From: Paracoccus aerodenitrificans
GTDB lineage: Bacteria; Pseudomonadota; Alphaproteobacteria; Rhodobacterales; Rhodobacteraceae
Assembly: GCF_027913215.1 (NCBI RefSeq)
Contig: NZ_CP115784.1
Coordinates: 1,240,001-1,304,000 of the forward strand
Reading direction: 5' to 3'
Length of the DNA: 64,000 nucleotides
This document shows positions 17,243 through 33,681 of the stretch, piece after piece. A program made the position numbers and the translations under genes. Numbering within the stretch: position 1 is the first letter of the stretch; the number at the start of each line of letters is the position of its first letter. Under the pieces are notes generated by a model. It did not search any database, was not told the origin of the DNA, and saw only the letters and a list, made by a program, of their open reading frames with translations.

Positions 17243-18241
17243 ATGAAATGGGGTCTGATCGGGGCGAGCTCTATCGCGGAAAACCGGATGATCGGGGCGT
17301 TTCGCGAAAGCGGGGATGAGATCATTGCCGTGCAAAGCTCGAATGCCGGACATGCCGCCGAGTTCGCCGCGCGGAATGACATCGCGCAGTCGGTGACGGA
17401 TCTTCAGCAGCTTCTGGAACAGCCGGGGCTGGAAGCGGTGTATATCTCCTCGACGAACGAAAAGCATTTTGATCAGGCGATGGCGGCGATTGCAGCAGGC
17501 AAACATGTGCTGTGCGAAAAGCCACTGGCAATGACGATTTCCGATGCGGTCGGCATGGTCCGCGCCGCCGAAAAGGCGGGAACGGTCTTTGCCACGAATC
17601 ATCACCTGCGCAATGCTGCCAGCCACCGGGCGATCAGGGATCTGATCCGTCAGGGCGCGATCGGAGAGGTGCTGAGTGCGCGGGTTTTCCATGCGGTAAA
17701 CCTGCCCGAGGCGTTGCAGGGCTGGCGCATCGACAGCAAGGGGGCCGGGGGCGGTGTGATCCTGGATATCGTCGTGCACGATGCCGACACGATCCGCTTT
17801 CATCTGGGCGAGGGTCCTGAAGAGGTCACGGCAATGACCTCGACCGGACGGCTCGGGAAGGGTGTCGAGGATGGTGTCATGTCGGTCTGGACCATGCCAT
17901 CGGGCATACTGGTCCAGACGCATGAAAGCTTTACCCACGCCCATGCCGGAACCGGGATCGAGTTTCATGGCACTGACGGGTCAATCTTCGCGCGTGGCGT
18001 CATGACGCAGAACCCGAACGGAGAGATCATCCTGCGCCGTGGCGGCGAGGCCACGCCGGTCAGTTTCCAGCCCGAGGATCTGTATCAGCGCGGCGTCCGC
18101 GCCTTTGGCGACGCGGTGCAGGGCAAGGGTCGTCCTGCGGCGGATGGGCGCGACGGGGTGGCGTCTCTGGCGGTGGCTCTGGCCGTGTCCGAGGCGGCAG
18201 AGACGGGTCAGCGTACCCGCGTGGATTACGGGGGATTCTGA
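17243..18241 (+). CDS. afr: Gfo/Idh/MocA oxidoreductase, 1,5-anhydro-D-fructose reductase-like
   Basis: 332 residues. A Rossmann opening (WGLIGASSIAENRMIGA) is followed by the family's catalytic CEKPLA motif (Lys93) and by GGGVILDIVVHDADT (Asp175, His179). These match in place the Lys-Asp-His set of 1,5-anhydro-D-fructose reductase, as do the stretches TNHHLRNAASHRA and VFHAVNLPEALQGWR that I recall from the Sinorhizobium morelense enzyme. That enzyme reduces the 2-keto sugar 1,5-anhydrofructose to 1,5-anhydromannitol with NADPH. First gene behind the LacI-type operator; its TGA overlaps the next ATG (TGATG). Similar 2-keto sugars are possible substrates. Confidence 0.8.
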   Translation: MKWGLIGASSIAENRMIGAFRESGDEIIAVQSSNAGHAAEFAARNDIAQSVTDLQQLLEQPGLEAVYISSTNEKHFDQAMAAIAAGKHVLCEKPLAMTISDAVGMVRAAEKAGTVFATNHHLRNAASHRAIRDLIRQGAIGEVLSARVFHAVNLPEALQGWRIDSKGAGGGVILDIVVHDADTIRFHLGEGPEEVTAMTSTGRLGKGVEDGVMSVWTMPSGILVQTHESFTHAHAGTGIEFHGTDGSIFARGVMTQNPNGEIILRRGGEATPVSFQPEDLYQRGVRAFGDAVQGKGRPAADGRDGVASLAVALAVSEAAETGQRTRVDYGGF

Positions 18242-19812
18242 TGTCAAAGATCGTTTCGCCTGCCGATGCTGCCGCCCGGATCGCGGATAATGCGGTGATC
18301 TCGGTGTCCTCCTCATCGGCTTTGGGCTGTCCGGATGCGGTTCTGGCCGCCATCGGTACGCGTTTCGATGCCGAGGGCCATCCGCGTGATCTGACCACGC
18401 TGCATCCGATTGCGGCGGGCGATATGTATGGGGTCAAGGGTGTCGATCATATCGCGAAGGACGGCTTGTTAAGCAGGATTCTGGCGGGGTCCTATCCGTC
18501 CGGGCCGTCCTCTTTGCCGATGCCTGAGATCTGGCGCATGGTCGTGGAAAACCGGGTGGCAGCCTATAATGTGCCCTCGGGGATCCTGTTCGACATGAAC
18601 CGCGATGCGGGCGCACGGCGTCCGGGCGTTCTGACCCGGGTCGGGCTGGACACATTCGTCGATCCGGTCCGCGAGGGCTGCGCGATGAATGACCGCGCCG
18701 CCTCCGAACCCATCGTGTTCCGGCAGGAATTCGGCGGGCAGACATGGCTGCATTTTCCGAATATCATCCCTGACGTGGCGATCATCCGGGCGACCACGGC
18801 GGATGAACACGGCAATCTGACCTATGAACATGAGGGCGCCTATCTGGGCGGTCTGGAACAGGCGATCACGGTGCGCAATCATGGCGGTCTGGTGATCGCG
18901 CAGGTCAAAAGAGTCACCGCGCGGGGCTCTCTGAGGCCGCATGACGTGCATGTCCCCGGCCATCTGGTCGATTTGATCGTCATTGCCGAAGATCAGCGCC
19001 AGACCACGGAAACCGACTATGATCCCGCGATTTCCGGCCAGATCATGCGCCCGTGGGACAGTTTCTCGCATGCCGAGCATGGCGTCGAAAAGATCATCGC
19101 CCGCCGCGCCGCGATGGAGCTGAGGCATGGCCAGACCGCCAATCTCGGCTTCGGCATCAGCGCGATGGTGCCGCGCATCCTGCTGGAAGCGGGGCATCCC
19201 GATGCGGTGACATGGGCCATCGAACAGGGCGCGGTCGGAGGCATGCCGCTGACCGGCTTCGCCTTTGGCTGTGCATCGAATGCGGATGCCTATGTTCCCT
19301 CGCCCCAGCAATTCACCTTCTTTCAGGGCGGCGGGTTCGATCTGTCCTTCCTCTCTTTCCTTGAGGTTGATACCGAGGGGAATGTGAATGTCTCGAAACT
19401 TAGCAAGAAGCCTTATCTGACAGCGGGTTGCGGCGGGTTTGTCGATATCACCGCCAATGCGCCGGAGATCGTCTTTTCGGGCTTCTTCGAAGCGGGGGCC
19501 GATCTGGACCTGACTGCCGAGGGGCTGCATGTGCGCAGCCCCGGCAAATTCACCAAGATGGTCGAGTCGGTGGAACATGTCACCTTCTCGGGCCGCCGTG
19601 CTGTCGAGACGGGGCAAAAGGTGCTGTATGTGACCGAACGCTGCGTGATCCGGCTGACTGCTGACGGGCTGATCGCCACCGAGATCATGCCGGGGATACA
19701 GCCGCAGCGCGATATCGCCGAGGCCTCTCAGGGACGCGTGAAGATCGCCGAAAACGCGGTCACCATGCCGAAATCCCTGCTGGCGGAAACCGCGATGGAG
19801 CTGCCCTTATGA
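18241..19812 (+). CDS. Family I CoA-transferase (propionate/acetoacetate CoA-transferase-like)
   Basis: 523 residues containing both halves of a family I CoA-transferase in one chain, as in Pct and YdiF. The N-terminal half shows DVAIIRATTADEHGNLTYEHEG (shared with the alpha subunit class). The C-terminal half holds the catalytic Glu, about residue 328, in AIEQGAVGGMPLTGFAFG, and GGGFDLSFLSFLEVDTEGNVNVSKL. It should move CoA between a short acyl-CoA and a free acid. Coupled by TGATG to the upstream reductase gene and by ATGA to the downstream hydratase gene. A CoA-linked enzyme is unexpected in a sugar-type cluster; its substrate is unknown. Confidence 0.88.
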   Translation: MSKIVSPADAAARIADNAVISVSSSSALGCPDAVLAAIGTRFDAEGHPRDLTTLHPIAAGDMYGVKGVDHIAKDGLLSRILAGSYPSGPSSLPMPEIWRMVVENRVAAYNVPSGILFDMNRDAGARRPGVLTRVGLDTFVDPVREGCAMNDRAASEPIVFRQEFGGQTWLHFPNIIPDVAIIRATTADEHGNLTYEHEGAYLGGLEQAITVRNHGGLVIAQVKRVTARGSLRPHDVHVPGHLVDLIVIAEDQRQTTETDYDPAISGQIMRPWDSFSHAEHGVEKIIARRAAMELRHGQTANLGFGISAMVPRILLEAGHPDAVTWAIEQGAVGGMPLTGFAFGCASNADAYVPSPQQFTFFQGGGFDLSFLSFLEVDTEGNVNVSKLSKKPYLTAGCGGFVDITANAPEIVFSGFFEAGADLDLTAEGLHVRSPGKFTKMVESVEHVTFSGRRAVETGQKVLYVTERCVIRLTADGLIATEIMPGIQPQRDIAEASQGRVKIAENAVTMPKSLLAETAMELPL

Positions 19813-20579
19813 CCGCTTCCCTTGATCTGAAGGTCGAAGACGGGCTGGCCACGCTCAGCCTGAATAACCCCCGCCGGCTGAACGCCTTTACCCCGGAAAT
19901 GCTGGACATGCTGGACCGGCATTGCGCCTCGCTCGATACCGATCCGGCGGTGCATTGCGTGATTCTGCGCGGAGAGGGCGAGCGTGCCTTCTGCGCCGGG
20001 GCCGATATCAAGGCATGGTCGGTGCTGCCGCCCTTCGATTTCGCCCGTGACTGGGTGCGCGGCGGGCATCGCATCTTCGACCGTCTGGCTCGGCTGTCGA
20101 AACCGAGCATCGCGGTGATCCATGCTCATGCCTTTGGCGGCGGTCTGGAACTGGCCGTGTGCTGCGATATCCGGGTCATGGCGCCGGATGCGACTTTGGC
20201 GCTGCCGGAGGCCCAGATCGGCATCGTGCCCGGCTGGTCCGGTACGCAGCGGCTTGCCCGGCTGATCCCGGTGCCGGTGCTGAAGGAGATGGCGATTTTC
20301 GGGCGGCGGATCGACGCGCAGCGGGCGCTGTCTCTTGGGCTGGTTGCCGAAATCTCGGACGATCCGCTGAGTGCAGCCCGTTCCATCGCGGCAAAGCTGC
20401 AGGATGCCTCTCCCCGCGCCGCCGAGGTTGCAAAATACATGATCCACGCCGCCACTGGAGAGGATCGCGACGCGATGATCGAGGCGCTTGGCAGCGGCAT
20501 GATCGCTGCCTCCGACGACAAGGCCGAAGGCGTCGCCGCTTTCGCCGAGAAACGCAAACCCGCATTCCCGGGGACATGA
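19809..20579 (+). CDS. Enoyl-CoA hydratase/isomerase family protein
   Basis: 256 residues, typical crotonase-fold length. The oxyanion-hole motif GERAFCAGADIKAW is near residue 60. Both glutamates used by true hydratases are present: in AFGGGLELAVCCDIR and in LALPEAQIGIVPGWSGTQRLARLIP. So hydration of an enoyl-CoA is plausible, probably on the product of the CoA-transferase encoded just upstream (four-base overlap). The substrate is not predictable. Confidence 0.9.
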   Translation: MTASLDLKVEDGLATLSLNNPRRLNAFTPEMLDMLDRHCASLDTDPAVHCVILRGEGERAFCAGADIKAWSVLPPFDFARDWVRGGHRIFDRLARLSKPSIAVIHAHAFGGGLELAVCCDIRVMAPDATLALPEAQIGIVPGWSGTQRLARLIPVPVLKEMAIFGRRIDAQRALSLGLVAEISDDPLSAARSIAAKLQDASPRAAEVAKYMIHAATGEDRDAMIEALGSGMIAASDDKAEGVAAFAEKRKPAFPGT

Positions 20580-20580
20580 C

Positions 20581-22104
20581 ATGACCGAATTGACCGTAAT
20601 TCCGGCAGCGAATGCCGAACTTCCCGAACCGCGCCGCAATCGCCATCTTATCAATGGCGAATGGCAGGACAGCGCCGATGGGGCGCAGTTTGAACGGCTC
20701 TCCCCCTCGCATCTGGTGAAGGCGAGCCTGTCGGCCAGGGCCGGACGGACCGAGACCGATGCCGCCATTGCCGCCGCACGCGCTGCATTCGATGACGGCA
20801 AATGGCGCGGCATGCCGGGCAAGGACCGCGCCACGCTGCTGAACCGCGTGGCGGACCTGATCGACGCCAATCGCGAGCGTATCGCGCTGATCGAGGTGCT
20901 GGAATCCGGCAAGCCCATCGCGCAGGCAAGGGGTGAGATCGAAGGCGCGGCCGATCTGTGGCGCTTCGCTGCCTCGCTGGCGCGGACCGTGCATGGCGAA
21001 AGCCATAACAACCTCGGCACCGAGATGCTTGGCGTGGTGCTGAAGGAACCGATCGGCGTTGCCGCGATCATCACGCCGTGGAATTTCCCGTTCCTGATCG
21101 TCAGCCAGAAACTGCCCTTCGCGCTTGCCGCGGGCTGCACGGCGGTTGTGAAACCCTCGGAAATGACGCCCTCGACAACGGTTATCCTCGGTGAGTTGCT
21201 GATCGAGGCCGGTGTGCCCGCAGGTGTGGTGAATATCGTCCTGGGCTTCGGCGATCCGGTCGGCGAGATGATGTCATCCGATCCGCGCGTGGATATGGTC
21301 AGCTTCACCGGCTCGACCGGAGTGGGCAAGCGGATCGTGGCGGCGGCCTCGGGGACGCTGAAAAAGGTCTCGCTGGAACTGGGCGGGAAAAACCCTCAGG
21401 TGATTTTCCCGGATGCCGATCTTGATGCGGCGGCGGATGCCATCGTCTTCGGGGTATATTTCAACATGGGTGAATGCTGTAACTCCGGCAGCAGGATCAT
21501 TGTGCACGAAGATATTGCCCGCGCGTTGCTGGAAAAGGTGAATGCGCTTTCGGCGCGTGTCCCGTTCGGCGATCCGCTGGATGAGCGCACTCAGGTCGGT
21601 GCGATTATCTCGGATGAGCATCAGCGGAAAATCGACGCCTATGTGAAACAGGCCGAGCAGGCCGGAGCGCGGGTCGAGATCGGCGGCGCGTCTTTGGGCG
21701 TGCCCGGGCTGGAGGGGCGTTTCTATCAACCGACCGTGATTTCGGGGGTGACGCCTGACATGGCGATTGCCCGTGAAGAAGTGTTCGGTCCCGTCCTGTC
21801 GGTCCTCACCTTCACCGAAGAGGCAGAGGCGATCCGGCTGGCGAATGACGCAGCCTATGGCCTTTCCGCCGGGGTCTGGAGCGAAAATATCCATACCTGC
21901 CTGAATTTCGCCCGGAATGTTCAGGCAGGCACGGTCTGGACGAATACCTGGATGGACGGTTTCGCCGAAATGCCGTTTGGCGGGGTTAAGGAAAGCGGTC
22001 AGGGGCGCGAACTCGGGCGCTACGGGCTTGAAGAATATCTGGAAGTCAAAACTATCCAGTTGCGCGTTGCGCGTGGACGGTCATTCTGGGTGCGTGACAG
22101 GTAA
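20581..22104 (+). CDS. NAD(P)-dependent aldehyde dehydrogenase
   Basis: 507 residues, full-length ALDH superfamily member. Motifs: ITPWNFPFLIVSQKLPFALAAGCTAVVKPSEMTP, FTGSTGVGKRI (cofactor glycine loop), LELGGKNPQVIF (general-base Glu), FNMGECCNSGSRI (catalytic Cys), EEVFGPVLSVLTF and PFGGVKESGQGRELGRYGLEEYLEVK. Best general resemblance is to betaine/sugar-aldehyde oxidising ALDHs. It begins one base after the hydratase stop and closes the first part of the LacI-type operon; a 60-base gap with tandem repeats follows. Confidence 0.92.
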   Translation: MTELTVIPAANAELPEPRRNRHLINGEWQDSADGAQFERLSPSHLVKASLSARAGRTETDAAIAAARAAFDDGKWRGMPGKDRATLLNRVADLIDANRERIALIEVLESGKPIAQARGEIEGAADLWRFAASLARTVHGESHNNLGTEMLGVVLKEPIGVAAIITPWNFPFLIVSQKLPFALAAGCTAVVKPSEMTPSTTVILGELLIEAGVPAGVVNIVLGFGDPVGEMMSSDPRVDMVSFTGSTGVGKRIVAAASGTLKKVSLELGGKNPQVIFPDADLDAAADAIVFGVYFNMGECCNSGSRIIVHEDIARALLEKVNALSARVPFGDPLDERTQVGAIISDEHQRKIDAYVKQAEQAGARVEIGGASLGVPGLEGRFYQPTVISGVTPDMAIAREEVFGPVLSVLTFTEEAEAIRLANDAAYGLSAGVWSENIHTCLNFARNVQAGTVWTNTWMDGFAEMPFGGVKESGQGRELGRYGLEEYLEVKTIQLRVARGRSFWVRDR

Positions 22105-22112
22105 CCATCGCA

Positions 22113-22142: not shown

Positions 22143-22164
22143 TAGACGCAAAAGGGAGGAAACC

Positions 22165-23421
22165 ATGCGTTTGAAACTGAAACTGGCCGGAACGGCTGCG
22201 GTGGCGCTCGGGCTGACGGCAAGTGCTGTAAGCGCGGCCGATGTCGAGGTGCAGCACTGGTGGACCGCCGGTGGTGAGGCTGCGGCGCTGAATGTGCTGA
22301 AGGAAAATCTGGAAGCTCAGGGAATCGGCTGGCAGGACATGCCCGTCGCCGGGGGCGGCGGTGAGGCCGCGATGACCGCGCTGCGGGCGCGTGTAACCTC
22401 GGGCAACCCGCCGACTGCCGTGCAGATGCTGGGTTTCGACATTCTCGACTGGGTCGATCAGGGCGATGTTCTGGCCGATCTGAACGAAGCCGCCGAGGCC
22501 GAGAACTGGGATGAGGTCATCCCGGAAGCGATCCAGAAATTCTCGAAGCCGAACGGCAACTGGATTGCGGCGCCGGTCAATGTTCACTCGACCAACTGGG
22601 TCTGGGCGAACAAGGCCATGCTGGACGAACTGGGAATCGCGCAGCCGACCACCTGGGACGAATTCATCGCCGCCCTTCAGACGGTGAAGGATTCGGGCAA
22701 GGTCGCTCTGGCGCATGGCGGTCAGCCCTGGCAGGAAGCGACGATTTTCGACAGCGCCGTGCTGGCCTCTGGCGGGCCGGAATTCTATCAGGCCTCGATG
22801 ATCGATCTCGACCCTGAGGCGCTGAACTCGCCCGAGATGGTCGACGCGTTCAACAAGATGGGCCAGCTTCGTGAATTCGTGGACGAGAATTTCTCGGGCC
22901 GCGACTGGAACCTCGCCTCGGCGATGGTGATCAATGACGAGGCCGCCTTCCAGATCATGGGCGACTGGGCCAAGGGCGAATTCCTGCGCGCCGATATGGT
23001 GCCGGGCGAGGATTTCCTGTGTTTCCGCGTGCCGGGAACGGAGGGCGTCGTGACCTTCAACAGCGACCAGTTCGTCATGTTCCGTCAGGACGACGAAGAG
23101 GCCCGCGCGGCTCAGCTTGCAATGGCGAAAGCGGCCGAATCGCCCGAGTTCCAGGCGGCGTTCAATCAGGTGAAGGGCTCGGTTCCTGCGCGGACCGACG
23201 TGTCGGCTGACGGGTTCGACGCCTGCGGACAGCAGGGCATGAAGGATCTGGCCGCTGCATCCGAAAACGGCACGCTGCTTGGCTCGATGGGGCATGGCCA
23301 TGCCAACCCCGCCTCGGTCAAGAACGCGATGTATGACGTGATCACCGCGCATTTCAACGGCGAGTACAGCAGCGAGGAAGCTGCCGAGGAACTGCTCAAC
23401 GCCGTAGAAGGCGCGATGTAA
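22165..23421 (+). CDS. Sugar ABC transporter substrate-binding protein
   Basis: 418 residues with a signal peptide ([24 protein letters not shown]). The mature part starts [26 protein letters not shown] and continues [34 protein letters not shown], the pattern of the glucose/mannose-type CUT1 binding proteins such as Pseudomonas GtsA. A disulfide-capable Cys pair occurs in FLCFR and [12 protein letters not shown]. Ligand most likely an aldose or a derivative. AGGGAGGAAA precedes the ATG. The gene opens the transporter part of the cluster. Confidence 0.92.
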
Positions 23422-23508: not shown

Positions 23509-24408
23509 ATGGCCCGGTCCGACCGCGCGCCACAGGATCTGCGCACCGTTCTGCAGAACTGGCTGCCGAAGATTGTCCTGTCGCCATCGCTCGCAGCGAT
23601 GCTGATTTTCGTCTATGGATTCATTGCCTATACGATCTATCTGTCCTTCACCGGCAGCAAGATGCTGCCCAGCTATGATCTGGTCGGGTTCGAAAACTAC
23701 GCCCGGCTGTTCGGCCTGTCCGCCTGGACGACGGCGCTGATCAATCTGGCGATCTTTGCGACGCTGTATATCGTCATCTGCATCGTGATCGGGCTGGTTC
23801 TGGCGATCTTTCTCGACCAGAAGATCCGGGGCGAGGGGATGCTGCGCCCGATCTATCTCTACCCGATGGCGCTGAGCTTCATCGTGACCGGGACGGCGTG
23901 GAAATGGCTGCTGGATCCGGGGATCGGGCTGGAAAACACAATGCATCTCTGGGGCTGGGAAAGCTTCGAGTTCGGCTGGATCAAGGATCGTGACATGGCG
24001 ATCTATACGCTGGTCATCGCGGCGGTCTGGCAAAGCTCGGGTTTCGTCATGGCGATGTTCCTCGCCGGGCTGCGCGGCATCGACAATGAGATGCTGAAAG
24101 CCGCCCAGATCGACGGGGCCTCGAACTGGAACCTTTACCGGCGCATCGTGATCCCGCTGCTGCGGCCCGCTTTTCTGTCGGCCTTTGTGATCCTCGCGCA
24201 TCTGGCGATCAAATCCTATGACCTTGTGATTGCCCTGACCGGAGGCGGTCCGGGCCGCGCGACCGAGCTGCCCGCGACTTTCATGTACAGCTACACCTTC
24301 ACCCGCAACCAGATGGGCGTCGGTGCTGCTTCGGCGGTGATCATGCTGATGGGGATCGCGGCGATCATGGTGCCTTACGTCTATGCCGAACTGAAGGAGC
24401 AGAAGTGA
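23509..24408 (+). CDS. Sugar ABC transporter permease (MalF-type)
   Basis: 299 residues with six predicted membrane segments (starting LSPSLAAMLIFVYGFIAYTIYLSFTGS). The EAA loop that contacts the ATPase reads EMLKAAQIDGASNWNLYRRIVIPLLRP near residues 195-220. CUT1-type permease acting with the next gene's product. The TGA overlaps the following ATG (TGATG). GGGGGAGGA precedes the start. Confidence 0.93.
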   Translation: MARSDRAPQDLRTVLQNWLPKIVLSPSLAAMLIFVYGFIAYTIYLSFTGSKMLPSYDLVGFENYARLFGLSAWTTALINLAIFATLYIVICIVIGLVLAIFLDQKIRGEGMLRPIYLYPMALSFIVTGTAWKWLLDPGIGLENTMHLWGWESFEFGWIKDRDMAIYTLVIAAVWQSSGFVMAMFLAGLRGIDNEMLKAAQIDGASNWNLYRRIVIPLLRPAFLSAFVILAHLAIKSYDLVIALTGGGPGRATELPATFMYSYTFTRNQMGVGAASAVIMLMGIAAIMVPYVYAELKEQK

Positions 24409-25289
24409 TGTCGATGGGCGCTCAGGACCAGGCCATCCGCACCGGCCGCATCACACGCATGTTCATCTATGTCGTGCTGATCTTCTTCGCTTTGTTCTAT
24501 CTGCTGCCGTTCTTCATCATGATGATCAACTCGGTCAAACCGCTGGAGGAGATTACCGGCGGCAACATGATGGCATTGCCAAGCGAATATACCTTCGCAC
24601 CGTGGGTCTCCGCCTGGGGCAGCGCCCAGATCGGGGTCGAGGCGACCGGGCTGAAGCCCTATTTCATGAACTCGATCCTGATGGTGGTGCCCGCCGTGGC
24701 GATCTCGACCGTGCTGGGGGCGATGAACGGCTATATTCTGACGAAATGGCAGTTCCGCGGATCGAATATCTTGTTCGGGCTGATGCTGTTTTCCTGCTTC
24801 ATTCCGTTCCAGATCGTGCTGATCCCGATGGCGCGGGTTATGGGGACCATCGGGCTGGCGGGCACGACCTCGGGTCTGATCCTTGTTCATGTGGTTTACG
24901 GGATCGGGTTTTCGACCCTGTATTTCCGCAATTACTACGCCGCCTTCCCGACCGAACTGGTCCGCGCGGCAATGATGGACGGGGCAGGGTTCTTCCGCAT
25001 TTTCTGGCGGATCATGCTGCCCGTGTCAGGTCCGATCGCGGTGGTCTGCATCATCTGGCAGTTCACAAATATCTGGAACGACTTCCTGTTCGGCGCGTCC
25101 TTCGCCGACCTGGATTCCATGCCGATGACCGTGGCGCTGAACAACCTCGTAAACAGCTCCACCGGCGTCAAAGCCTATAATGTCGATTTCGCCGGCGCGA
25201 TCCTGGCAGCACTTCCAACGCTGCTCGTTTATATCGTCGCGGGCCGCTATTTCGTGCGCGGTCTGATGGCCGGCTCAGTGAAGGGATAA
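24408..25289 (+). CDS. Sugar ABC transporter permease (MalG-type)
   Basis: 293 residues with six membrane segments. The EAA loop is seen as ELVRAAMMDGAGFFRIFWRIMLPVSGP. The ATG at 24,408 shares its A with the upstream stop and has AAGGAG at 24,394-24,399; a GTG one codon earlier is possible. It pairs with the MalF-type permease as a heterodimeric channel for the sugar delivered by the binding protein. Four bases separate it from the ATPase gene. Confidence 0.93.
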   Translation: MSMGAQDQAIRTGRITRMFIYVVLIFFALFYLLPFFIMMINSVKPLEEITGGNMMALPSEYTFAPWVSAWGSAQIGVEATGLKPYFMNSILMVVPAVAISTVLGAMNGYILTKWQFRGSNILFGLMLFSCFIPFQIVLIPMARVMGTIGLAGTTSGLILVHVVYGIGFSTLYFRNYYAAFPTELVRAAMMDGAGFFRIFWRIMLPVSGPIAVVCIIWQFTNIWNDFLFGASFADLDSMPMTVALNNLVNSSTGVKAYNVDFAGAILAALPTLLVYIVAGRYFVRGLMAGSVKG

Positions 25290-25293
25290 CGCG

Positions 25294-26412
25294 ATGCCGT
25301 TTCTGAATATAGACAACGTCACAAAATCCTACGGCAATGTCGAAGTGCTGCACCGCGTCGATATCGGCGTCGAAGAGGGTGAGTTTCTGGTCCTTGTCGG
25401 GCCGTCCGGTTGCGGGAAATCCACCCTGCTGAACATGATCGCGGGGCTGGAGAACATCACCAGTGGCGAGATCTCGATCAAGGACCGGGTGGTGAATGAC
25501 GTGCACCCCTCCAAGCGCAATATCGCGATGGTGTTTCAAAGCTACGCACTCTACCCGAACATGACCGTCGGCGGCAACATCACCTTCGGGATGGAGATGC
25601 ACGGCATCCCCAAGCCCGAGCGTGAGAAGAAGCTGGATGAAGTCGCGAAGCTTCTGCAGATCGATCACCTGCTGGACCGCAAGCCCGGCCAGCTTTCGGG
25701 CGGTCAGCGGCAGCGTGTGGCGATGGGCCGGGCGCTGACCCGCGACCCGGATGTGTTCCTGTTCGATGAGCCGCTGTCCAACCTCGATGCAAAGCTGCGC
25801 GTCGATATGCGCACCGAGATCAAGAAGCTGCATCAGCGGCTGAAAAGCACCATCGTTTATGTGACCCATGACCAGATCGAGGCGCTGACCCTGTCCACCC
25901 GCATCGCGGTAATGAACAAGGGCTATGTCCAGCAGCTTGGCACGCCGAAGGAAATCTATGACCAGCCTGCGAATATGTTCGTGGCGGGTTTCATGGGCAG
26001 CCCTTCGATGAACCTTCTGCCTGCGGTTCTGCGTGAGGCCGATGGCGAGCTGGCGGCCGAGCTGAAGGATGCGCAGGGTCAGCCGGTGCAGTTGAAACTG
26101 TCTCAGAACGGCGAGGCGTTCCGCAGCTTCCTCGGGCGCGATGTGGTTCTGGGGATCCGGCCCGAAGCGATCACCGATGCGGATGGGGTGGACCGGAATG
26201 CGCGGAATACGCAGGGTCTGCGCAATATGGTCAGCGTGACGGAACCGGCGGGATCGGATACCTTCGTCGAGACGGAACTGTCCGGCAAGCCCTGCATCGC
26301 GCGAATGCGGGCGGATGTGGATGTCCATGCCGGGCAGCCTTTCGATTTCGTGGTGAATCTGGATAAGGCGGTTGTGTTCGATCCCGAAACGGAAAACCGG
26401 ATCGGGGGCTAG
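25294..26412 (+). CDS. Sugar ABC transporter ATP-binding protein (MalK/UgpC-type)
   Basis: 372 residues. Walker A GPSGCGKST near 38-46, Q-loop MVFQSYALYPNMTV, signature LSGGQRQRVAMGRALTRDP, Walker B VFLFDEPLSNLDAKLR, switch His in YVTHDQIEALTL. A C-terminal TOBE/regulatory domain follows (RDVVLGIRPEAI). The length and TOBE domain mark it as the carbohydrate-importer ATPase class. It ends with TAG immediately followed by the ATG of the GMC gene, so importer and oxidases form one unit. Confidence 0.95.
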   Translation: MPFLNIDNVTKSYGNVEVLHRVDIGVEEGEFLVLVGPSGCGKSTLLNMIAGLENITSGEISIKDRVVNDVHPSKRNIAMVFQSYALYPNMTVGGNITFGMEMHGIPKPEREKKLDEVAKLLQIDHLLDRKPGQLSGGQRQRVAMGRALTRDPDVFLFDEPLSNLDAKLRVDMRTEIKKLHQRLKSTIVYVTHDQIEALTLSTRIAVMNKGYVQQLGTPKEIYDQPANMFVAGFMGSPSMNLLPAVLREADGELAAELKDAQGQPVQLKLSQNGEAFRSFLGRDVVLGIRPEAITDADGVDRNARNTQGLRNMVSVTEPAGSDTFVETELSGKPCIARMRADVDVHAGQPFDFVVNLDKAVVFDPETENRIGG

Positions 26413-27906
26413 ATGGACGCGGATCTTGTCATTATCGGATCGGGGATGGGCGGCGCCACGCTTGCCGCCGCTCTGGCCCCCTCGGGCAAGCGCATCCTCG
26501 TCATCGAGGCCGGAGAGCGTTTGCAGGACAGTCCCGATGCCCGCGACGGATATGCGATTCACGGGCGCGGCGTGTTCCGTCCGGATGAGACCTGGCTGGA
26601 CGGGCAGGGCGACGCGTTCAGCCCCGGCAATTTCTATTATGTCGGCGGGAACTCGAAATTCTACGGCGCGGTGCTGCTGCGCTACCGTGAGGCGGATTTC
26701 AGCCCGATCCGGCATATTGGCGGCACGACGCCGGGCTGGCCTGTTTCTTATGCCGAGATAGAGACATGGTATCAGGCTGCGGAACAGATGTACCGGGTCC
26801 GGGGCAACGCCTCGGACGATCCGACCGAGCCGCCCCATTCCGGCAGCTATCCCTTCCCGTCGGTTCCCGATGAACCCGAAATCGCCGATCTGCGCACCCG
26901 CCTGCGCCGGATCGGGCTACATCCCTCATATCTGCCCTTGGGGGTTGATCTTGATCGTTGGTTGGAACGTGCCAATACCGGATGGGACGGCTATCCCGAC
27001 ACGAATGGCGGCAAGATGGATGCCGAGACGATCGGCATGGCCGAGGCATTGCGGCACCCGAATGTGACCCTGCTGACCGGCACTCGGGCGGAGTTGCTGG
27101 AATGCGGCACTGACGGGCGGATCGGAGCGGTGCGTGTCACCGGCCCGGAGGGTCCGGGGCGGATCGAAGCGCCGCTCTTCGCGCTTGCCGCCGGGGCGGT
27201 GAATACGGCCGCGCTGCTGCTGCGCTCGGCGGATGAGGAGCATCCGGTCGGGCTGGCGAACCGCTCGGATCAGCTTGGCCGGAATTTCATGAACCATAAT
27301 TGCTCGGCGGTACTGGCGATCCACCCGTTCCGGCGCAATCGCAGCATCTATCAGAAAACGCTGATGGTGAATGATTTCTACGAAACCGGAGGCCCGCAGG
27401 GCGAGCCTCTGGGCAATATCCAGATGCTGGGACGCGTCACCGGCCCGATCCTTGCCGCCGGATCGGGCCTGCCGCTGCCACTGGCGCGGATTATCTCGTC
27501 CCGTGCGCTGGATCTTTACGCTATGTCAGAGGATCTGCCCGATCCCGAAAGCCGCGTCACCCTTCGGGGCGACCGGATCGTGCTGGACTGGAAACGGTCG
27601 AACTGGGATGCGCATCTGGCGCTTGTCGCGCGGCTGAAAAGCGAATTGCGGCGGGCGGGCTATCCTCTGGTGCTGTCGAAACCCTTCGATCGCCGGACCC
27701 CCTCGCATCAATGCGGGACCGCGAGGATGGGCCGCGATCCGGGCAGCAGCGTGACGGATATCTATGGGCGGACGCATGATCATCCAAACCTGTTCATCAC
27801 AGATGCAAGCATTCTGCCGACCTCGGCGGCGGTCAATCCAGCGCTGACCATTGCCGCGCTGTCCTTGCGGGCGGCGGATCACATCAGCGGAAAGGACTGG
27901 GCATGA
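26413..27906 (+). CDS. GMC-type flavoprotein oxidoreductase, pyranose-oxidase-like
   Basis: 497 residues. FAD-binding GSGMGGATLAAAL at the N-terminus and VIEAGERL beta-strand. Catalytic pair: His432 in SHQCGTARMG and Asn475 in VNPALTIAALSLRAADHI. A His/Asn pair about 45 residues apart with HxxGTxRMG is the arrangement of pyranose 2-oxidase and glucoside 3-dehydrogenase relatives, which oxidise ring hydroxyls to keto sugars. No signal peptide, so it appears cytoplasmic. Zero-base gap from the ATPase gene and four-base overlap with the SDR gene. Electron acceptor and regiochemistry are unknown. Confidence 0.85.
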   Translation: MDADLVIIGSGMGGATLAAALAPSGKRILVIEAGERLQDSPDARDGYAIHGRGVFRPDETWLDGQGDAFSPGNFYYVGGNSKFYGAVLLRYREADFSPIRHIGGTTPGWPVSYAEIETWYQAAEQMYRVRGNASDDPTEPPHSGSYPFPSVPDEPEIADLRTRLRRIGLHPSYLPLGVDLDRWLERANTGWDGYPDTNGGKMDAETIGMAEALRHPNVTLLTGTRAELLECGTDGRIGAVRVTGPEGPGRIEAPLFALAAGAVNTAALLLRSADEEHPVGLANRSDQLGRNFMNHNCSAVLAIHPFRRNRSIYQKTLMVNDFYETGGPQGEPLGNIQMLGRVTGPILAAGSGLPLPLARIISSRALDLYAMSEDLPDPESRVTLRGDRIVLDWKRSNWDAHLALVARLKSELRRAGYPLVLSKPFDRRTPSHQCGTARMGRDPGSSVTDIYGRTHDHPNLFITDASILPTSAAVNPALTIAALSLRAADHISGKDWA

Positions 27907-28652
27907 GCGGCGTTGCCCTGATCACTGGCGGTCAGCAGGGGATCGGTCTGGGGATCGCGACCGCGCTGCGCGATGCGGGCTGGCGGCTGGCGATTGCCGC
28001 CGAACAGCCCCCCGAAGCGGTGCGCGACGCGATGAGCGCCCTGCCGGAAGCGCGTTATTATCAGCATGATCTGGCGGAGATCGACACGATCTCCTCCCTG
28101 CTGGATGCGGTCGAGGCGGATCTGGGGCCTGTGACCGCGCTGATCTGCAATGCCGGAGTACCGGCGCGGATACGCGGCGACATGCTGGAGATGCTGCCTG
28201 AAAATTTCGACTGGACGATGAATATCAACCTGCGCGGCAATTTCTTTCTTGCTCAGCAGGTCGCCCGGCGGATGCTGGCGCGGCCAGGCGGGGAATATCG
28301 CGCGATCATCTTCGTTACTTCGGTCAGCGCCGAAATGGTCTCGGTCGAGCGTGCCGAATATTGCATGTCGAAAGCCGGAGCGTCGATGATGGCAAAGCTG
28401 TTCGCGGCGCGTCTGGCGGGCGACAATATCGGCGTATTCGAACTGCGTCCGGGGATTGTCGAAACCCCGATGACGGCGGCGGTTTCAGGGAAATACGACG
28501 CGCTGATCGCAGGCGGGCTGGTGCCTGCGGGGCGGTGGGGGAAACCTGCCGATATCGGGCGTGTGGTGCTGCCGCTGCTGCGCGGCGAGATGGCGTTTTC
28601 AACGGGCAGCGTGATTGCCGTGGATGGCGGATTGTCCATCCCAAGACTTTGA
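27903..28652 (+). CDS. Short-chain dehydrogenase/reductase
   Basis: 249 residues, classical SDR. Cofactor motif [12 protein letters not shown] near the N-terminus, NAG in LICNAGVP, and the catalytic Tyr-x3-Lys in EYCMSKAG. C-terminal [15 protein letters not shown] is the standard ending. It resembles 3-ketoacyl-ACP reductase-like sugar SDRs annotated in many clusters. Sits between two GMC oxidases with a four-base overlap upstream and 13 bases downstream, so it likely acts on the same keto or polyol intermediates. Confidence 0.9.
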
Positions 28653-28665
28653 GGGGAGGCCGGAC

Positions 28666-30261
28666 ATGGCCGAAGGTTACGATTTCATTATCATCGGAGG
28701 CGGCAGCGCGGGCTGCGTGCTGGCCAACCGGCTGAGCGAGAACCCGGATGCAAGCGTCCTGCTGATCGAGGCCGGGCCGCGTCCGCGCCACCCGTTCTAT
28801 GCCATGCCCGCCGGTTTCGCGAAAATGACCAAGGGCATCGGAAGCTGGGGCTGGTCCACCGTGCCGCAGAAACACATGAGGGACCGGGTGATCCGCTTTA
28901 CGCAGGCGCGGGTTCTGGGCGGCGGCTCCAGCGTGAATGCACAGATCTATACGCGCGGCAACGCTCTGGATTACGATGAATGGCGGCAGATGGGCTGCGA
29001 GGGCTGGTCCTATGAGGATGTGCTGCCCTATTTTCGCAAATCCGAGGATAACGACACTTACGACAATGAATTCCACGGGCAGGGCGGACCGCTTGGCGTG
29101 TCGAAACCCGCCGCCCCGCTGCCGGTATGCGAGGCCTATTTCAAGGCCGCCAGCCAGCTTGGCATTCCCTTCAACGAGGATATGACCGGGGCCGAACAGG
29201 CCGGGGTCGGCTATTATCAACTGACCCAGAAACATGCGCGGCGGTCCTCGACCTCGGTGGCGTTTCTTGATCCGGCGCGGGGGCGTCCGAATCTGACGGT
29301 GATGTCCGGGACGCAGGTTCTGGGCATCGTGGTCGAAAACAACCGCGCCACCGGCATCAGGATCGCGGACGGCTCCGGGGTCCGGCAGATCGGTGCTGCA
29401 AACGAGGTCATTCTGTCTTCCGGCGCAATCGGCTCTCCGCGATTGCTGATGCTGTCGGGGATCGGGCCGGGGGATCACCTGCGCGAGACCGGGCTGGATG
29501 TGGTCTTGGACCAGCCCGAGATCGGTGCGAATCTTCAGGATCACCTCGATCTGTTCACCATCTGGGAATGCAGCGGCCCGCACAGCTATGACCGTTTCGC
29601 GAAGCCGCATCTCTCGGTTCTGGCCGGGCTGCAATATCTGCTGACCCGCAAGGGCCCGGTGGCCTCCAGCCTGTTCGAGACGGGCGGGTTCTGGTTCGTG
29701 GAAGAGGGCGCACGCTCTCCTGATGTGCAATTCCATCTGGGTCTCGGCTCGGGGATTGAAGCGGGTGTCGCGGCGATGCCGGATGGCGGTCTGACGCTGA
29801 ACTCGGCCTATCTGAGGCCGCGTTCGCGCGGGACGGTCCGGCTGGCAAGCGCCGATCCCAAGGCCGCGCCGCTGATCGACCCGAATTACTGGGCCGATCC
29901 GCATGATCGCGAGATGTCGATCCGTGGCCTGCAACTGGTCCGCCAGATCATGTCGCAGGATGCGCTGAAACCCTTCCTGACCCGCGAGGTCCTGCCGGGG
30001 CCGGAGATCCGGACCGAGCAGGAGCTTTTCGAACATGCCTGCGCCAATGCCAAGACCGACCACCACCCGGCGGGCACATGCCGGATGGGGGCGGATTCGG
30101 GCGCGGTGCTCGATCCGCGTCTGCGATTTAACGGGATCAGCGGGCTGCGCGTGGCCGATGCCTCGGTTATGCCCCGTCTGGTTTCCTCGAACACCAATGC
30201 GCCGGTTATCATGATCGCGGAGAAAGCCGCCGACATGATCCGGGCCGATCATGGAGTCTGA
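28666..30261 (+). CDS. GMC-type dehydrogenase, choline dehydrogenase-like
   Basis: 531 residues. FAD motif [21 protein letters not shown] signature [15 protein letters not shown] (about 85-100), second signature [21 protein letters not shown], catalytic His in [11 protein letters not shown], and partner Asn in [19 protein letters not shown]. This is the BetA/alcohol dehydrogenase branch, distinct from the other GMC protein two genes upstream. No signal peptide is evident. ATG 28,666 was chosen because GAGGGGAGG lies just before it; a longer frame overlaps the SDR gene. Substrate unknown; a primary alcohol or sugar alcohol is plausible in this cluster. Confidence 0.9.
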
Positions 30262-30264
30262 CCG

Positions 30265-31428
30265 ATGAAACTGCCCTTGCCCGATGGTACATTACAGGAA
30301 TTCCGATTCTCGAAAGAACCACTGACGCCCCGCGCCCCGGGTCGTGCGTTCAGCCGCACGGCTTTCGCCGCCGCCCATATCGCCAGCGATCCGCTGGCCG
30401 AGCGCGATCCCTGGACCGGACCTCCGGCGGTGGACTGGGAGGCGACACTGGCGTTTCGCCGCAGCCTCTGGGATCAGGGTCTGGGACTGGCCGAGGCGAT
30501 GGATACGGCGCAGCGCGGCATGGGCGTGGACTGGGAAACGGCGCTTGAACTGATCCGGCGCACGATGGCCGAGGCGAAGGCGCACCCCCTGAAGCCGCGT
30601 GTCGCCTGTGGTGCGGGAACGGATCACAAAACGCCAGAGGAACTGCCGGATACCGCATCCATCATCGCCGCCTATGAGCATCAGATGGCCTGCATCGAGG
30701 ATGCAGGCGGGCAGCTTATCCTGATGGCGACGCGGGCGCTGCCTGCGATCGGCGCGGGGCCGGATGAGTATCGTCAGGTCTATGACCGGCTGATCGGACA
30801 GGCCCGCGATCCGGTCATCCTGCACTGGCTGGGAGATATGTTCGACCCGGCGTTGCGCGGATATTGGGCCTGTCAGGATATCGCCGCCGCCTCGGACGCC
30901 GTGCTGGCGCTGATCGAGGCGCATGCGGGCAAGGTGGACGGGATCAAGATATCGCTTCTCGACCAACAGCATGAGGAATCGTTCCGCGCAAGGCTGCCCG
31001 AGGGCGTGAAGCTGTATACCGGAGACGATTTCAACTATGCGGCGCTGATCGCCGGGGATGGCCAGCATCATTCCCATGCGCTTCTCGGGGCGTTCGCGGC
31101 GATTGCTCCGGCCGCCGCGCAGGCGCTTGAAGCGCTCGCAGCCGGGGACAGGGCAGGCTATGATGCGCTCATGACGCCGACGATTCCCCTTTCCCGCGAA
31201 ATTTTCCGGGCGCCAACGCGCTTCTACAAGGCGGGGATCGCCTTTCTGGCCTGGCTGAACGGAATGCAGACGCATTTCATCATGCCTGCCGGGTTCCAGT
31301 CCTCGCGCCCGATCCTGCATTATGCCGATCTGTTCCGGCTGGCGGCGGATGCGGGTCTGTTGCACGATGCTGATCTGGCATCGGCCCGGATGCGCAATCT
31401 GATGGCGGTTCACGGCATCGGGGAATGA
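30265..31428 (+). CDS. DUF993 family protein (dihydrodipicolinate synthase/aldolase-like)
   Basis: 387 residues. I recognise the DUF993 family, a class I aldolase-like (DHDPS-fold) group, from RVACGAGTDHKTPEE, HWLGDMFDPALRGYWACQD, and KVDGIKISLLDQQHEESFRARLPEGVKLYTGDDFNY. The Lys in GIKISL is at the place where DHDPS-like enzymes form the Schiff base. A retro-aldol cut of a keto-acid sugar is therefore a reasonable guess, which would fit glycerate kinase downstream. Three bases after the GMC stop and four-base overlap (ATGA) with the LacI gene. Confidence 0.85.
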   Translation: MKLPLPDGTLQEFRFSKEPLTPRAPGRAFSRTAFAAAHIASDPLAERDPWTGPPAVDWEATLAFRRSLWDQGLGLAEAMDTAQRGMGVDWETALELIRRTMAEAKAHPLKPRVACGAGTDHKTPEELPDTASIIAAYEHQMACIEDAGGQLILMATRALPAIGAGPDEYRQVYDRLIGQARDPVILHWLGDMFDPALRGYWACQDIAAASDAVLALIEAHAGKVDGIKISLLDQQHEESFRARLPEGVKLYTGDDFNYAALIAGDGQHHSHALLGAFAAIAPAAAQALEALAAGDRAGYDALMTPTIPLSREIFRAPTRFYKAGIAFLAWLNGMQTHFIMPAGFQSSRPILHYADLFRLAADAGLLHDADLASARMRNLMAVHGIGE

Positions 31429-32432
31429 AGCGCAGGCCGACCATTCTCGATGTGGCCGAGGCTGCGGGCGTGTCGAAATCGACCGTCTCGCTGGTGCTTC
31501 AGGGCAGCGATCTGGTCCGGGATGAAACCGCCCGGACCGTGCGCGAGGCGATGGCTGCGGTCGGTTATGTCTATAACCGGGCCGCCGCGAATTTGCGCTC
31601 GGCCTCGACGGGGCTGGTCGGTCTGGTCATCAACGATCTGCGTAACCCGTTCTTCACCGAGCTTGCGACCACCATGCAGATGCGGCTTGCCGATGCGGGT
31701 TTCGCCACGGTGATCGGCAATGCAGATGAGGACCCGCTGCGGCAGGAACAGCTTGTGCGCTCGATGCTGGAACATGGGGTTGCGGGGCTGGTGATCTCGC
31801 CCAGTTTCGGCGATCCGGGAAGTGTCACCGATCAGATCCTGACGGCGGGCGTGCCTGCCATGCAGCTTCTGCGCAGGCTGGAGGGAAGCGAGGGCCGGCT
31901 GCCCTTCGCGTCCTTCGACTATACGGATGGAGGCCGCCTTGCCACACGGCATCTGCTGGATCAGGGCCTGCGCCGCATCGCCTTTGTCGGCGGAGCGCCC
32001 GGGCGGCAGATCACCAAGGAACGTGCCTCGGGCTATCTCGAACAGATGCACGCCGCCGGGCTGACTCCGCTGACGCTGCATGGCCCGACCAGTCGGCGCA
32101 GCGGGTTCGATTCTGCTGCAGAGTTGCCGCCCGAAACCGAAGCGGTTCTGTGTTTCAACGATCTGGTGGCATTGGGGCTGATGAACGGGCTTGCCCATGC
32201 CGGGCGGCGTGTGGGGCAGGATATCCGTCTGGTCGGCTTCGACGATATCGCCGAATGCGCCGAGGTCTGGCCCGCTTTGTCCTCGGTCAGTTGCGATATC
32301 GCGCGGTTTGGCGATGATATGGCAAGACGATTGCTAAGCTGGCTTGACACCGGCGCGGCACCGCCAAACGAAACCCGTGCGCCCGTCGGGCTTGTGGTCC
32401 GGCAATCCAGCCTCGGAGGCAACCATGAATGA
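31425..32432 (+). CDS. LacI family transcriptional regulator
   Basis: 335 residues. The N-terminal HTH with hinge reads PTILDVAEAAGVSKSTVSLVLQGSDLVRDETARTVREAMAAVGYVYNRAAANLRS. The periplasmic-binding-like effector domain follows (GLVGLVINDLRNPFFTELATTMQ...; DIRLVGFDDIAECAEVWPALSSV). It is embedded in the catabolic cluster (four-base overlap with DUF993, eight-base overlap with glycerate kinase) and is the natural candidate to bind the operator at 17,207-17,222. The effector is probably the transported sugar or an intermediate. Confidence 0.94.
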   Translation: MKRRPTILDVAEAAGVSKSTVSLVLQGSDLVRDETARTVREAMAAVGYVYNRAAANLRSASTGLVGLVINDLRNPFFTELATTMQMRLADAGFATVIGNADEDPLRQEQLVRSMLEHGVAGLVISPSFGDPGSVTDQILTAGVPAMQLLRRLEGSEGRLPFASFDYTDGGRLATRHLLDQGLRRIAFVGGAPGRQITKERASGYLEQMHAAGLTPLTLHGPTSRRSGFDSAAELPPETEAVLCFNDLVALGLMNGLAHAGRRVGQDIRLVGFDDIAECAEVWPALSSVSCDIARFGDDMARRLLSWLDTGAAPPNETRAPVGLVVRQSSLGGNHE

Positions 32433-33681
32433 GCGTGAGATCCTGAATGCCCTTTTCGCGCGGGCCGTCGCCGTCGCTGATCCGATGCGTTTCATCGCCC
32501 CGAACCTGCCCGAGCGCCCTGCCGGGCGTGTGCTGGTGGTCGGGGCGGGGAAAGCCTCGGCGCGGATGGCCGAAGCGGTCGAGGCGGAATGGGGACCCTG
32601 CGAGGGGCTTGTGATCACGCGTTACGGCTATGGCCGCCCGACACAGGGAATCGAGATTGCCGAGGCCGCGCATCCCGTGCCCGATCAGGCCGGGGTGGAT
32701 GCGACGCAGAGATTGCTTGATCTGCTTGGCGGGCTGGAACCGGACGATCTGGTCCTGATGCTGATCTCGGGCGGAGCCTCGGCGCTGCTCTGCGCCCCGG
32801 CCGGAGAGATGACGCTGGCCGAGAAACAGGCGGTGAATGCCGCGCTGCTGGCATCGGGAGCGCCGATCGGCAAGATGAATGTGCTGCGCAAGCATCTCAG
32901 CCGGGTGAAGGGCGGCCAGCTTGCCGCTGCGGCGGCACCTGCGCGTGTGCTGTCGCTGATGATCTCGGATGTGCCGGGCGACGATCCGGCGATGATCGGA
33001 TCGGGGCCGACAATCGGCGATCCGACCACGGCAGAGGATGCGCTGGCAATCGTCAATCGCTGGCGGATCGGGTTGCCCGACAGCGCGAAACGGGTCCTTG
33101 ACGGCGACACCGGCGTGATCGCGCCGGGCGATCCCCGGCTTGCGAAGGTCGAAAACCGCATTGTCGCCGCGCCTGCGCAATCCCTTGCCGCTGCCGCCAC
33201 CGTGGCGCAGGGGAACGGCATTGCCACGCTGCTTCTCGGCGACGATCTGGACGGTGAGGCACGAGAGGTTGCTGCCGCGCATGCCGCTTTGGCGTTGAAG
33301 CTTCAGGCAGAGATGTCACCCGGCGATAATCCGATGGTCGTCCTGTCGGGCGGAGAACTGACCGTGACCCGACGCGGAGACGGTGTGGGCGGGCCGAATG
33401 CGGAATATGCACTGGCGCTTGCGCTGTCTCTGAACGGGGCGAAGGGGATCCACGCGATTGCCTGCGATACGGACGGGGTGGACGGCGCGGCAGAGGTGGC
33501 GGGCGCGGTCATTGCCCCCGACACTCTGGACCGCGCGGTATCGGCAGGGCTGGACGCGGCGAAGGCGCTTGCGGAAAACGACGCGCACAGCTTTTTCGGT
33601 GCGTTGGGCGATCAGGTCGTGACCGGGCCGACCCTGACCAATGTGAACGATTTCCGCGCCATCCTCATTCACCCGGCATAG
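32425..33681 (+). CDS. Glycerate 2-kinase (DUF4147/MOFRL family)
   Basis: 418 residues. The first domain shows VLVVGAGKASARMAEAVE and the glycine-rich LMLISGGASALL, followed by KMNVLRKHLSRVKGGQLA; the C-terminal MOFRL part has MVVLSGGELTVTRRGDGVGGPNAEYALALAL and IACDTDGVDGAAEVAGAV. This class phosphorylates D-glycerate to 2-phosphoglycerate, feeding lower glycolysis. GGAGG at 32,415-32,419 precedes ATG 32,425. It ends the LacI cluster and overlaps the 3' end of the opposing RND gene by 17 bases. Confidence 0.92.
   Translation: MNEREILNALFARAVAVADPMRFIAPNLPERPAGRVLVVGAGKASARMAEAVEAEWGPCEGLVITRYGYGRPTQGIEIAEAAHPVPDQAGVDATQRLLDLLGGLEPDDLVLMLISGGASALLCAPAGEMTLAEKQAVNAALLASGAPIGKMNVLRKHLSRVKGGQLAAAAAPARVLSLMISDVPGDDPAMIGSGPTIGDPTTAEDALAIVNRWRIGLPDSAKRVLDGDTGVIAPGDPRLAKVENRIVAAPAQSLAAAATVAQGNGIATLLLGDDLDGEAREVAAAHAALALKLQAEMSPGDNPMVVLSGGELTVTRRGDGVGGPNAEYALALALSLNGAKGIHAIACDTDGVDGAAEVAGAVIAPDTLDRAVSAGLDAAKALAENDAHSFFGALGDQVVTGPTLTNVNDFRAILIHPA

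Follow-up and report, generated by a model that had tools for sequence, protein, structure and literature searches.

The 64,000-nucleotide stretch of Paracoccus aerodenitrificans DNA analysed here (the window; contig NZ_CP115784.1, positions 1,240,001 to 1,304,000, of a 3.56-Mb genome in 5 contigs) carries a cluster of 14 genes, all on the + strand between positions 17243 and 33681, that extends from a gene for a 1,5-anhydro-D-fructose reductase (AFR)-like protein through one for a glycerate 2-kinase. This widely shared gene set of a soil-type bacterium probably serves the aerobic breakdown of the unusual sugar 1,5-anhydroglucitol and related compounds. The cluster is a real, conserved and co-regulated catabolic system whose outline, a coenzyme A (CoA)-dependent route from 1,5-anhydrohexitols to 2-keto-3-deoxygluconate (KDG), appears to be new. 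From the gene families, their conservation, an operator, a module swap and a protein fold, all of which were computed, we infer the substrate and every reaction; the full scheme, an aerobic 1,5-anhydrohexitol catabolic operon that makes KDG via a CoA thioester, is given somewhat less than an even chance of being correct.

The AFR-like protein finds its top solved matches in 2glx and 4koa (E 1.7e-106 and 3.4e-103, against 2.9e-24 for the match that follows), groups by sequence with the solved AFRs clear of other Gfo/Idh/MocA proteins, and has Lys93, Asp175 and His179, which we take to be the AFR catalytic set, at the positions given in an initial annotation of this DNA. Judged by its sequence, it is a close relative of the solved 1,5-anhydrofructose reductases. 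The families that the same annotation had named for the CUT1 importer, the SDR, DUF993, the LacI regulator, the glycerate 2-kinase (a MOFRL-family protein by our scans) and two GMC proteins, the second of them (GMC2) choline-dehydrogenase-like, all hold, as does, for the most part, its description of the genes as overlapping or touching: spacing is below 20 bp or negative except for 60 and 87 bp on either side of the gene for the sugar-binding protein (SBP). Its label of the first GMC protein (GMC1) as pyranose-oxidase-like keeps only a faint basis, 44 bits to TIGR02462 (pyranose oxidase) against a cut-off of 545, whereas the top solved match is an FAD glucose dehydrogenase (8hdd/6a2u) and glucose and fructose dehydrogenase subunits are nearer than pyranose oxidases.

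The gene list in that annotation was also incomplete, since it passed over three genes of the same span that encode a CoA-transferase, an enoyl-CoA hydratase (ECH) and an aldehyde dehydrogenase (ALDH). Glu328 of the CoA-transferase aligns with position 333 of YdiF (2ahu), presumably the catalytic Glu of that enzyme, and is kept in 15/15 sequences, the window's copy counted. ECH has a 3-hydroxypropionyl-CoA dehydratase (5zai) as its top solved match and keeps Glu114 and Glu134, which, paired by motif, we take to be the crotonase catalytic glutamates, again in 15/15 sequences with the window's copy counted; because both hydratase glutamates are retained, a beta-diketone hydrolase assignment was rejected. 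This trio makes oxidation of the sugar to an acid, and CoA activation, central. These two features were missed in the earlier interpretation, of which the anhydro- or keto-hexose substrate, the aldolase step and entry to glycolysis as 2-phosphoglycerate are supported.

In the proposed scheme, 1,5-anhydroglucitol, 1,5-anhydrofructose and 1,5-anhydromannitol are the candidate substrates, and uptake would occur through the CUT1 importer. GMC1 would oxidize anhydroglucitol at C2 to anhydrofructose, AFR would reduce this to anhydromannitol (= 2,6-anhydro-D-mannitol), and GMC2 and ALDH together would convert the CH2OH group of anhydromannitol to give 2,6-anhydro-D-mannonate. The CoA-transferase would then form the CoA ester, possibly by passing CoA back from product to substrate, ECH would remove the beta-hydroxyl as water, and addition of water to the resulting enol ether would yield KDG in its pyranose form. 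Acting as a class I aldolase, DUF993 would cleave KDG to pyruvate and D-glyceraldehyde, and an aldehyde dehydrogenase and the glycerate 2-kinase would carry glyceraldehyde to 2-phosphoglycerate. Relatives without DUF993 would mostly use a KDG-kinase-like gene and then the ordinary phosphorylated route. The strongest single argument for a path through KDG is stereochemical. Oxidation at C6 followed by loss of O4 and H5, a syn elimination for both 1,5-anhydromannitol and 1,5-anhydroglucitol, takes the former to D-KDG and the latter to the L-threo isomer; because it is the manno epimer that gives D-KDG and, according to published work, that AFR forms, AFR would be needed en route from anhydroglucitol or anhydrofructose.

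The gene arrangement is not a product of chance, as it is kept between families and orders. Among 12 genome loci compared with 10 kb flanks (L002-L013), the cluster is carried, within reach of the flanks, by 7 (L002-L008, from Paracoccus, Ruegeria, Roseicyclus, Shimia, Roseobacter and Rhodobacter), and the other 5 (L009-L013) hold DUF993 in other gene settings. Variation within the seven includes L005, with no AFR-to-ALDH block within reach, L006, which is without the importer, and the glycerate kinase, which is visible only in L005 and L008. The cluster also lies on plasmid records of Peteryoungia, Rhizobium daejeonense, Rhizobium SL42, Sinorhizobium meliloti Ak57, Microvirga and Rhizobium CCGE531; in Roseibium the block from AFR to GMC1 was read, with GMC2 and DUF993 farther along the same plasmid. 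In 149 Rhodobacteraceae genomes, each searched with one query per family, the CoA-transferase of the window type (type I, at least 74% identity) occurs in 23, and AFR (E<=1e-60) in 14, all of them within these 23 and on the same contig; a test of co-occurrence, such as the initial annotation had proposed for cluster genes, is positive here (14/14). GMC1 (E<=1e-80) is found in 24 genomes, 21 of them among the 23, and DUF993 in 33, 13 of them among the 23, with DUF993 and the CoA-transferase on one contig in 8 of the 13 and a MOFRL glycerate kinase in the cluster in 5. Neither AFR nor DUF993 is present throughout the system, 9 of the 23 being without AFR and 10 without DUF993.

The exchange of DUF993 for another module may point to KDG as the shared intermediate. 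In the DUF993-less clusters that were fetched, a FAD_binding_2 flavoprotein of ~700 residues replaces the SDR, DUF993 and the glycerate kinase, usually together with a Gfo/Idh/MocA (Gfo) protein and mostly with a PfkB kinase. The top family of this kinase is 2-dehydro-3-deoxygluconokinase, at 230-263 bits (under the NF052444 cut-off of 400 in NCBIfam) against 104-125 bits for the second family, and its top solved match is a KDG kinase. In Sulfitobacter, a relative of 57% identity that scores equally lies next to the genes for glucuronate isomerase and mannonate dehydratase, which form the classical path to D-KDG, and the kinase of a hexuronate operon (L079) likewise reaches only 248 bits against NF052444. 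At >=58% identity, a line set after inspection of the list (next match 54%) and with a query, the G070 protein, from one of the counted genomes, the kinase occurs in 8/149 genomes, all among the 23. It is present in 7 of 10 DUF993-less genomes (G070, G075, G091, G114, G141, G143, G163) against 1 of 13 with DUF993 (G136), p 0.006 for genomes that are related to one another. The swap recurs in a second bacterial order, in Rhizobium CCGE531. KDG as intermediate explains both endings, the aldolase with glycerate kinase and the kinase with the phosphorylated route. A long reading frame of L059, considered as a further PfkB kinase, proved to be an ApbE-like protein and was left uncounted.

Fold and kinase swap together suggest that DUF993, a domain of unknown function, cleaves KDG. 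The family has one close solved relative, the unannotated 4dnh of S. meliloti, and fold searching shows a (beta/alpha)8 barrel with C-terminal helices, as in the class I aldolases of the DHDPS/NAL group. Lys228, in a GIK motif on the strand at 224-230 (strand 6), is invariant in 20/20 sequences and is the putative Schiff-base position, judged from strand order and motif without superposed coordinates. Class I aldolases of the DHDPS/NAL group carry a Tyr on strand 5 and a GTTGE carboxylate loop. DUF993 has neither: the sequence of strand 5 (184-189) is VILHWL, in which His187-Trp188 is invariant, and strand 2 is followed by a loop of sequence DTAQRGMG. We therefore see DUF993 as a divergent branch of this fold that would work like a class I aldolase, not as a typical NAL member. 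Cleavage by DUF993 in the manner of a BKACE (DUF849) or a thiolase had been considered because some DUF993 clusters (type II, below) hold a CoA-transferase, an acyl-CoA dehydrogenase and an SDR, and was dropped, the fold matches among those listed being DHDPS/NAL enzymes; that BKACE does not appear among the matches listed is no proof against it. In four further clusters (type III: L034, L036, L039, L040) DUF993 stands with Gfo/Idh/MocA proteins and a TIM-barrel epimerase, and 3/4 hold an enolase-superfamily protein as well; these settings offer more hints of what DUF993 acts on.

The clusters share a conserved operator of the LacI type. Of 34 type I stretches (G114, G136, G141 and G143 being counted twice), 29 hold the palindrome TTGGAACGTTCCAA (12-base core, <=1 mismatch) outside mapped genes, usually 20-150 bp 5' of AFR, the CoA-transferase or LacI, and the five stretches without it (L002, L003, L004, L007, L008) end before the end of AFR. 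It also stands 5' of the group of Gfo, FAD flavoprotein and kinase genes in G114, G141 and G143, with one mismatch in G136, and 5' of Gfo in G145 and G084, where the kinase was not found; CCGE531 has one perfect copy 52 bp 5' of LacI. In 13 type II, type III and other DUF993 loci it was found outside genes in none. In the window genome, the copy 5' of AFR is the sole match to TGGAACGTTCNA without mismatch, and one-mismatch matches are at background level. LacI would act as a repressor from the predicted operator at 17209.

Among the closest known systems is the afr locus of S. morelense and S. meliloti. In S. meliloti the cluster is this afr locus: the window AFR is 52% identical to the Ak57 copy and its neighbours are the same, CoA-transferase through glycerate kinase, DUF993 and LacI being divergent there. 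We take afr of S. meliloti to be SMc04400 and, by gene order, the locus to span about SMc04389-SMc04402 and smc04396 to be its SBP gene. Published work covers AFR and a proposed P450-like step; the suggestion in the initial annotation that no complete bacterial route for 1,5-anhydrohexitols is known to use this gene set must be qualified accordingly, as a passage of a 2025 review describes a partial route from 1,5-anhydrofructose by AFR to anhydromannitol and then, via a P450-like enzyme, to mannose (PMC12441222). Passages of the same review state that an oxidative 1,5-anhydroglucitol pathway is not described and that in Rhizobiaceae no enzyme has yet been assigned to the step following AFR (PMC12441222). 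Induction of smc04396 by dextrin is mentioned, with reference to earlier work, in a passage of PMC4960864; dextrin is compatible with a source of anhydrofructose and is not proof of one. Elsewhere, a comparison that involves a phaR mutant lists SMc04390-SMc04392 with log2 fold changes below zero (an excerpt of PMC12542648), and excerpts of PMC5969746 and PMC13259140 merely cite AFR work. In open-licence PubMed Central papers, searched for locus tags of S. meliloti, for DUF993 and for a link between anhydrosugars and KDG, no pathway description was found, nor any paper that joins the CoA, GMC, DUF993 and kinase genes beside afr.

The lower part of the proposed scheme would resemble the non-phosphorylative Entner-Doudoroff pathway, with its DHDPS-superfamily KDG aldolase, aldehyde dehydrogenase and MOFRL glycerate 2-kinase leading to 2-phosphoglycerate. 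In the archaeal version a dehydratase makes KDG from gluconate, whereas here an anhydrosugar acid, activated with CoA and dehydrated by ECH, would be the source of KDG, and the aldolase would be DUF993. Gut bacteria use the same 1,5-anhydroglucitol and anhydromannitol in a glycyl-radical pathway (YbiW, PflD), which differs in being anaerobic and in proceeding through phosphotransferase system phosphorylation and 1-deoxyfructose-6-phosphate, according to a passage of PMC12441222; family scans found no gene of that pathway among the 14. A grouping defined in this analysis, the paralogous type II DUF993 clusters of S. meliloti pSymA (L045), P. versutus pTAV3 (L044), P. kondratievae (L043), Rhizobium NLR16a (L046) and Janthinobacterium (L042), shares ALDH, GMC2, CoA-transferase, ECH, glycerate kinase, SDR and DUF993 in L043-L046, L042 being without the glycerate kinase. 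Type II clusters differ in having a CUT2 importer, a zinc alcohol dehydrogenase, aldo-keto reductases, an acyl-CoA dehydrogenase and, mostly, an electron transfer flavoprotein (ETF) and a TIM-barrel epimerase, and in lacking AFR, GMC1 and the type I operator. The glycerate kinase match of L045, from S. meliloti R14, falls into two pieces.

Taken as a new aerobic pathway, in which a CoA-activated sugar acid undergoes crotonase-type dehydration to KDG, DUF993 is an undescribed branch of KDG aldolases and AFR supplies the epimerising step, the reading is tentative and stays below an even chance, slightly under that given above to the full scheme; type II clusters would then use the same CoA-dependent core for another sugar. 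Such a pathway suggests that CoA thioesters are used in the dehydration of sugar acids, and it proposes a function for DUF993. The cluster supplies candidate genes for almost all steps, along with predicted intermediates, and a gap left since 2006 becomes directly testable in S. meliloti. A passage of PMC12441222 adds that, for a probiotic to lower 1,5-anhydroglucitol in two inherited neutropenias, an aerobically active enzyme would be required.

A number of points weigh against the KDG scheme. The enol-ether hydration has no enzyme assigned; the SDR (or the FAD flavoprotein that replaces it) and a small Dabb protein of many type I clusters have no job; and the acyl-CoA dehydrogenase and ETF of type II clusters are unexplained. 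Published work reports mannose after AFR (a passage of PMC12441222), and the sole expression hint is that for dextrin with S. meliloti smc04396 (a passage of PMC4960864). L003, L005 and L006 have no ALDH where it usually lies, and Paraburkholderia L047 has the cluster without GMC1. In five of the 13 genomes with both genes, DUF993 is on another contig than the CoA-transferase (G067, G081, G089, G136, G177), a contig that in G089 and G136 also carries GMC1, and an hhalign comparison of 20 DUF993 proteins with the genome's two DHDPS-family proteins gave no useful match. The kinase argument is weakened by the low NF052444 scores and by the choice of identity line and query noted above, by three DUF993-less genomes with no such kinase in the cluster (G061, G084, G145), by G136, which has both kinase and DUF993, and by more distant kinases of this kind elsewhere in DUF993 genomes, the window's own included (47%). 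The CCGE531 kinase is followed by a class I fructose-bisphosphate aldolase, so that a ketose phosphate fits equally. AFR, moreover, is absent from 7/10 DUF993-less type I genomes and from 6/8 kinase genomes, and AFR-less clusters would need an AFR stand-in, perhaps the Gfo protein, to reach D-KDG, or another substrate.

The foremost of the alternatives, itself unlikely, is a 3-keto route, in which GMC1 or the SDR would produce a 3-keto anhydrosugar, beta-elimination would give a 1-deoxy-2,3-diulose or 1-deoxyfructose, and DUF993 would cleave this to a C3 ketone and glyceraldehyde, with a kinase and a ketose-phosphate aldolase taking over in DUF993-less relatives. This would give the SDR a job, suit the AFR-less clusters and agree with the aldolase gene next to the CCGE531 kinase, with the levoglucosan-dehydrogenase-like character (under the family cut-off) of the type Ib Gfo protein, and with the passage through 1-deoxyfructose-6-phosphate in anaerobic gut bacteria (in part of PMC12441222). 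However, no clear role would remain in it for the CoA-transferase, ECH and GMC2; the kinase is nearest KDG kinase and not a ketose kinase, and AFR is a C2 reductase according to published work. Next in likelihood, and also improbable, is the same chemistry on another natural substrate, for example a glycoside or a different anhydro- or keto-sugar; reduction of 1,5-anhydrofructose would then be a side activity only. The nine type I genomes without AFR, the shared core behind a CUT2 importer in type II and dextrin as the only inducer seen in print (a passage of PMC4960864) fit such a view, whereas the closeness of AFR to enzymes named for 1,5-anhydrofructose speaks against it, as does a Bradyrhizobium plasmid (L028) in which AFR adjoins GMC1 and the other cluster genes were not found within 18 kb. 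For Roseibium, which came from a red alga, glycerol glycosides (floridoside) were considered; nothing supportive was seen, and no dedicated search was made.

Behind these two, and doubtful, stands the published route, in which 1,5-anhydromannitol made by AFR would be hydroxylated at C1 by a P450-like enzyme to D-mannose and the remaining genes would serve other or later steps. A review passage that cites Kuhn, Yu and Giffhorn 2006 describes it and treats AFR catalysis as established (PMC12441222). Yet no P450, mannose kinase or mannose isomerase is annotated in those clusters of relatives whose records were read, in tables that may be incomplete, the only P450 of the window genome is ~700 kb distant, and no job would be left for the CoA-transferase, ECH, GMC2, DUF993 and glycerate kinase that are conserved alongside AFR. 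The least probable alternative, for which we see only a slight chance, has the ring opened to glycerate and 3-hydroxypropionaldehyde, with ALDH, CoA-transferase and ECH taking 3-hydroxypropionate to acrylyl-CoA. YdiF-type CoA-transferases, to which that of the cluster belongs, act on short-chain acids, the top solved match of ECH is a dehydratase of just this kind and a glycerate kinase is present; against this, an additional cleaving enzyme would be required, family scans recognised no acrylyl-CoA reductase in the window cluster, and the KDG-kinase swap would go unexplained. The KDG scheme remains the preferred reading; the features of the cluster are collected in the table.

Table. Features of the window cluster (positions in the window), followed by examples of Dabb genes (positions in the respective loci).
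Feature	Position	Strand	Basis or remark
LacI-type operator (TTGGAACGTTCTAA)	17209..17220		predicted; 28 bp 5' of AFR
AFR, 1,5-anhydro-D-fructose reductase-like (Gfo/Idh/MocA)	17243..18241	+	2glx/4koa top solved matches
Family I CoA-transferase, fused, YdiF type	18241..19812	+	PF01144
Enoyl-CoA hydratase/dehydratase (ECH)	19809..20579	+	PF00378
Aldehyde dehydrogenase (ALDH)	20581..22104	+	PF00171, E 5e-166
CUT1 sugar-binding protein (SBP)	22165..23421	+	PF01547
CUT1 permease A	23509..24408	+	PF00528
CUT1 permease B	24405..25289	+	PF00528
CUT1 ATPase, UgpC type	25294..26412	+	NF008653, over its cut-off
GMC1, FAD sugar dehydrogenase/oxidase-like	26413..27906	+	PF05199
SDR, PRK12745 family	27903..28652	+	NF009386, over its cut-off
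GMC2, choline-dehydrogenase-like alcohol dehydrogenase	28666..30261	+	PF00732/PF05199; start reassigned from sequence to ATG at 28666
DUF993, proposed KDG aldolase	30265..31428	+	
LacI-family regulator	31425..32432	+	PF00356, PF13377
Glycerate 2-kinase, MOFRL family	32425..33681	+	PF13660, PF05161; start reassigned from sequence to ATG at 32425
Dabb, L051	4904-5212		
Dabb, L059	8815-9123		
Dabb, L002	about 9680		

In many type I clusters the Dabb protein (~102 residues) is encoded after GMC2 or before DUF993; in the window, the 3-bp spacing between GMC2 and DUF993 leaves no room for it. In another arrangement, GMC1 and the CUT1 importer recur with a thiamine pyrophosphate-dependent enzyme and a histidinol-dehydrogenase-family protein in place of the CoA genes (L031 4421-13422; L032 4407-15062; L033, which also holds two AFR-like genes), and this may represent a third way of using the GMC1 product. 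Immediately upstream of the cluster and on the same strand, TctC and TctA genes of a tripartite tricarboxylate transporter occupy 14207-17133; they were set aside as cluster members, as they are not annotated directly 5' of AFR in the records of six relatives. At the other end, a gene for an AcrB-type RND efflux pump (33665-36913, - strand) converges on the glycerate kinase gene, and relatives of the pump occur at the same end in Paracoccus L002 (84%), Peteryoungia L025 (22%) and Rhizobium L027 (41%).

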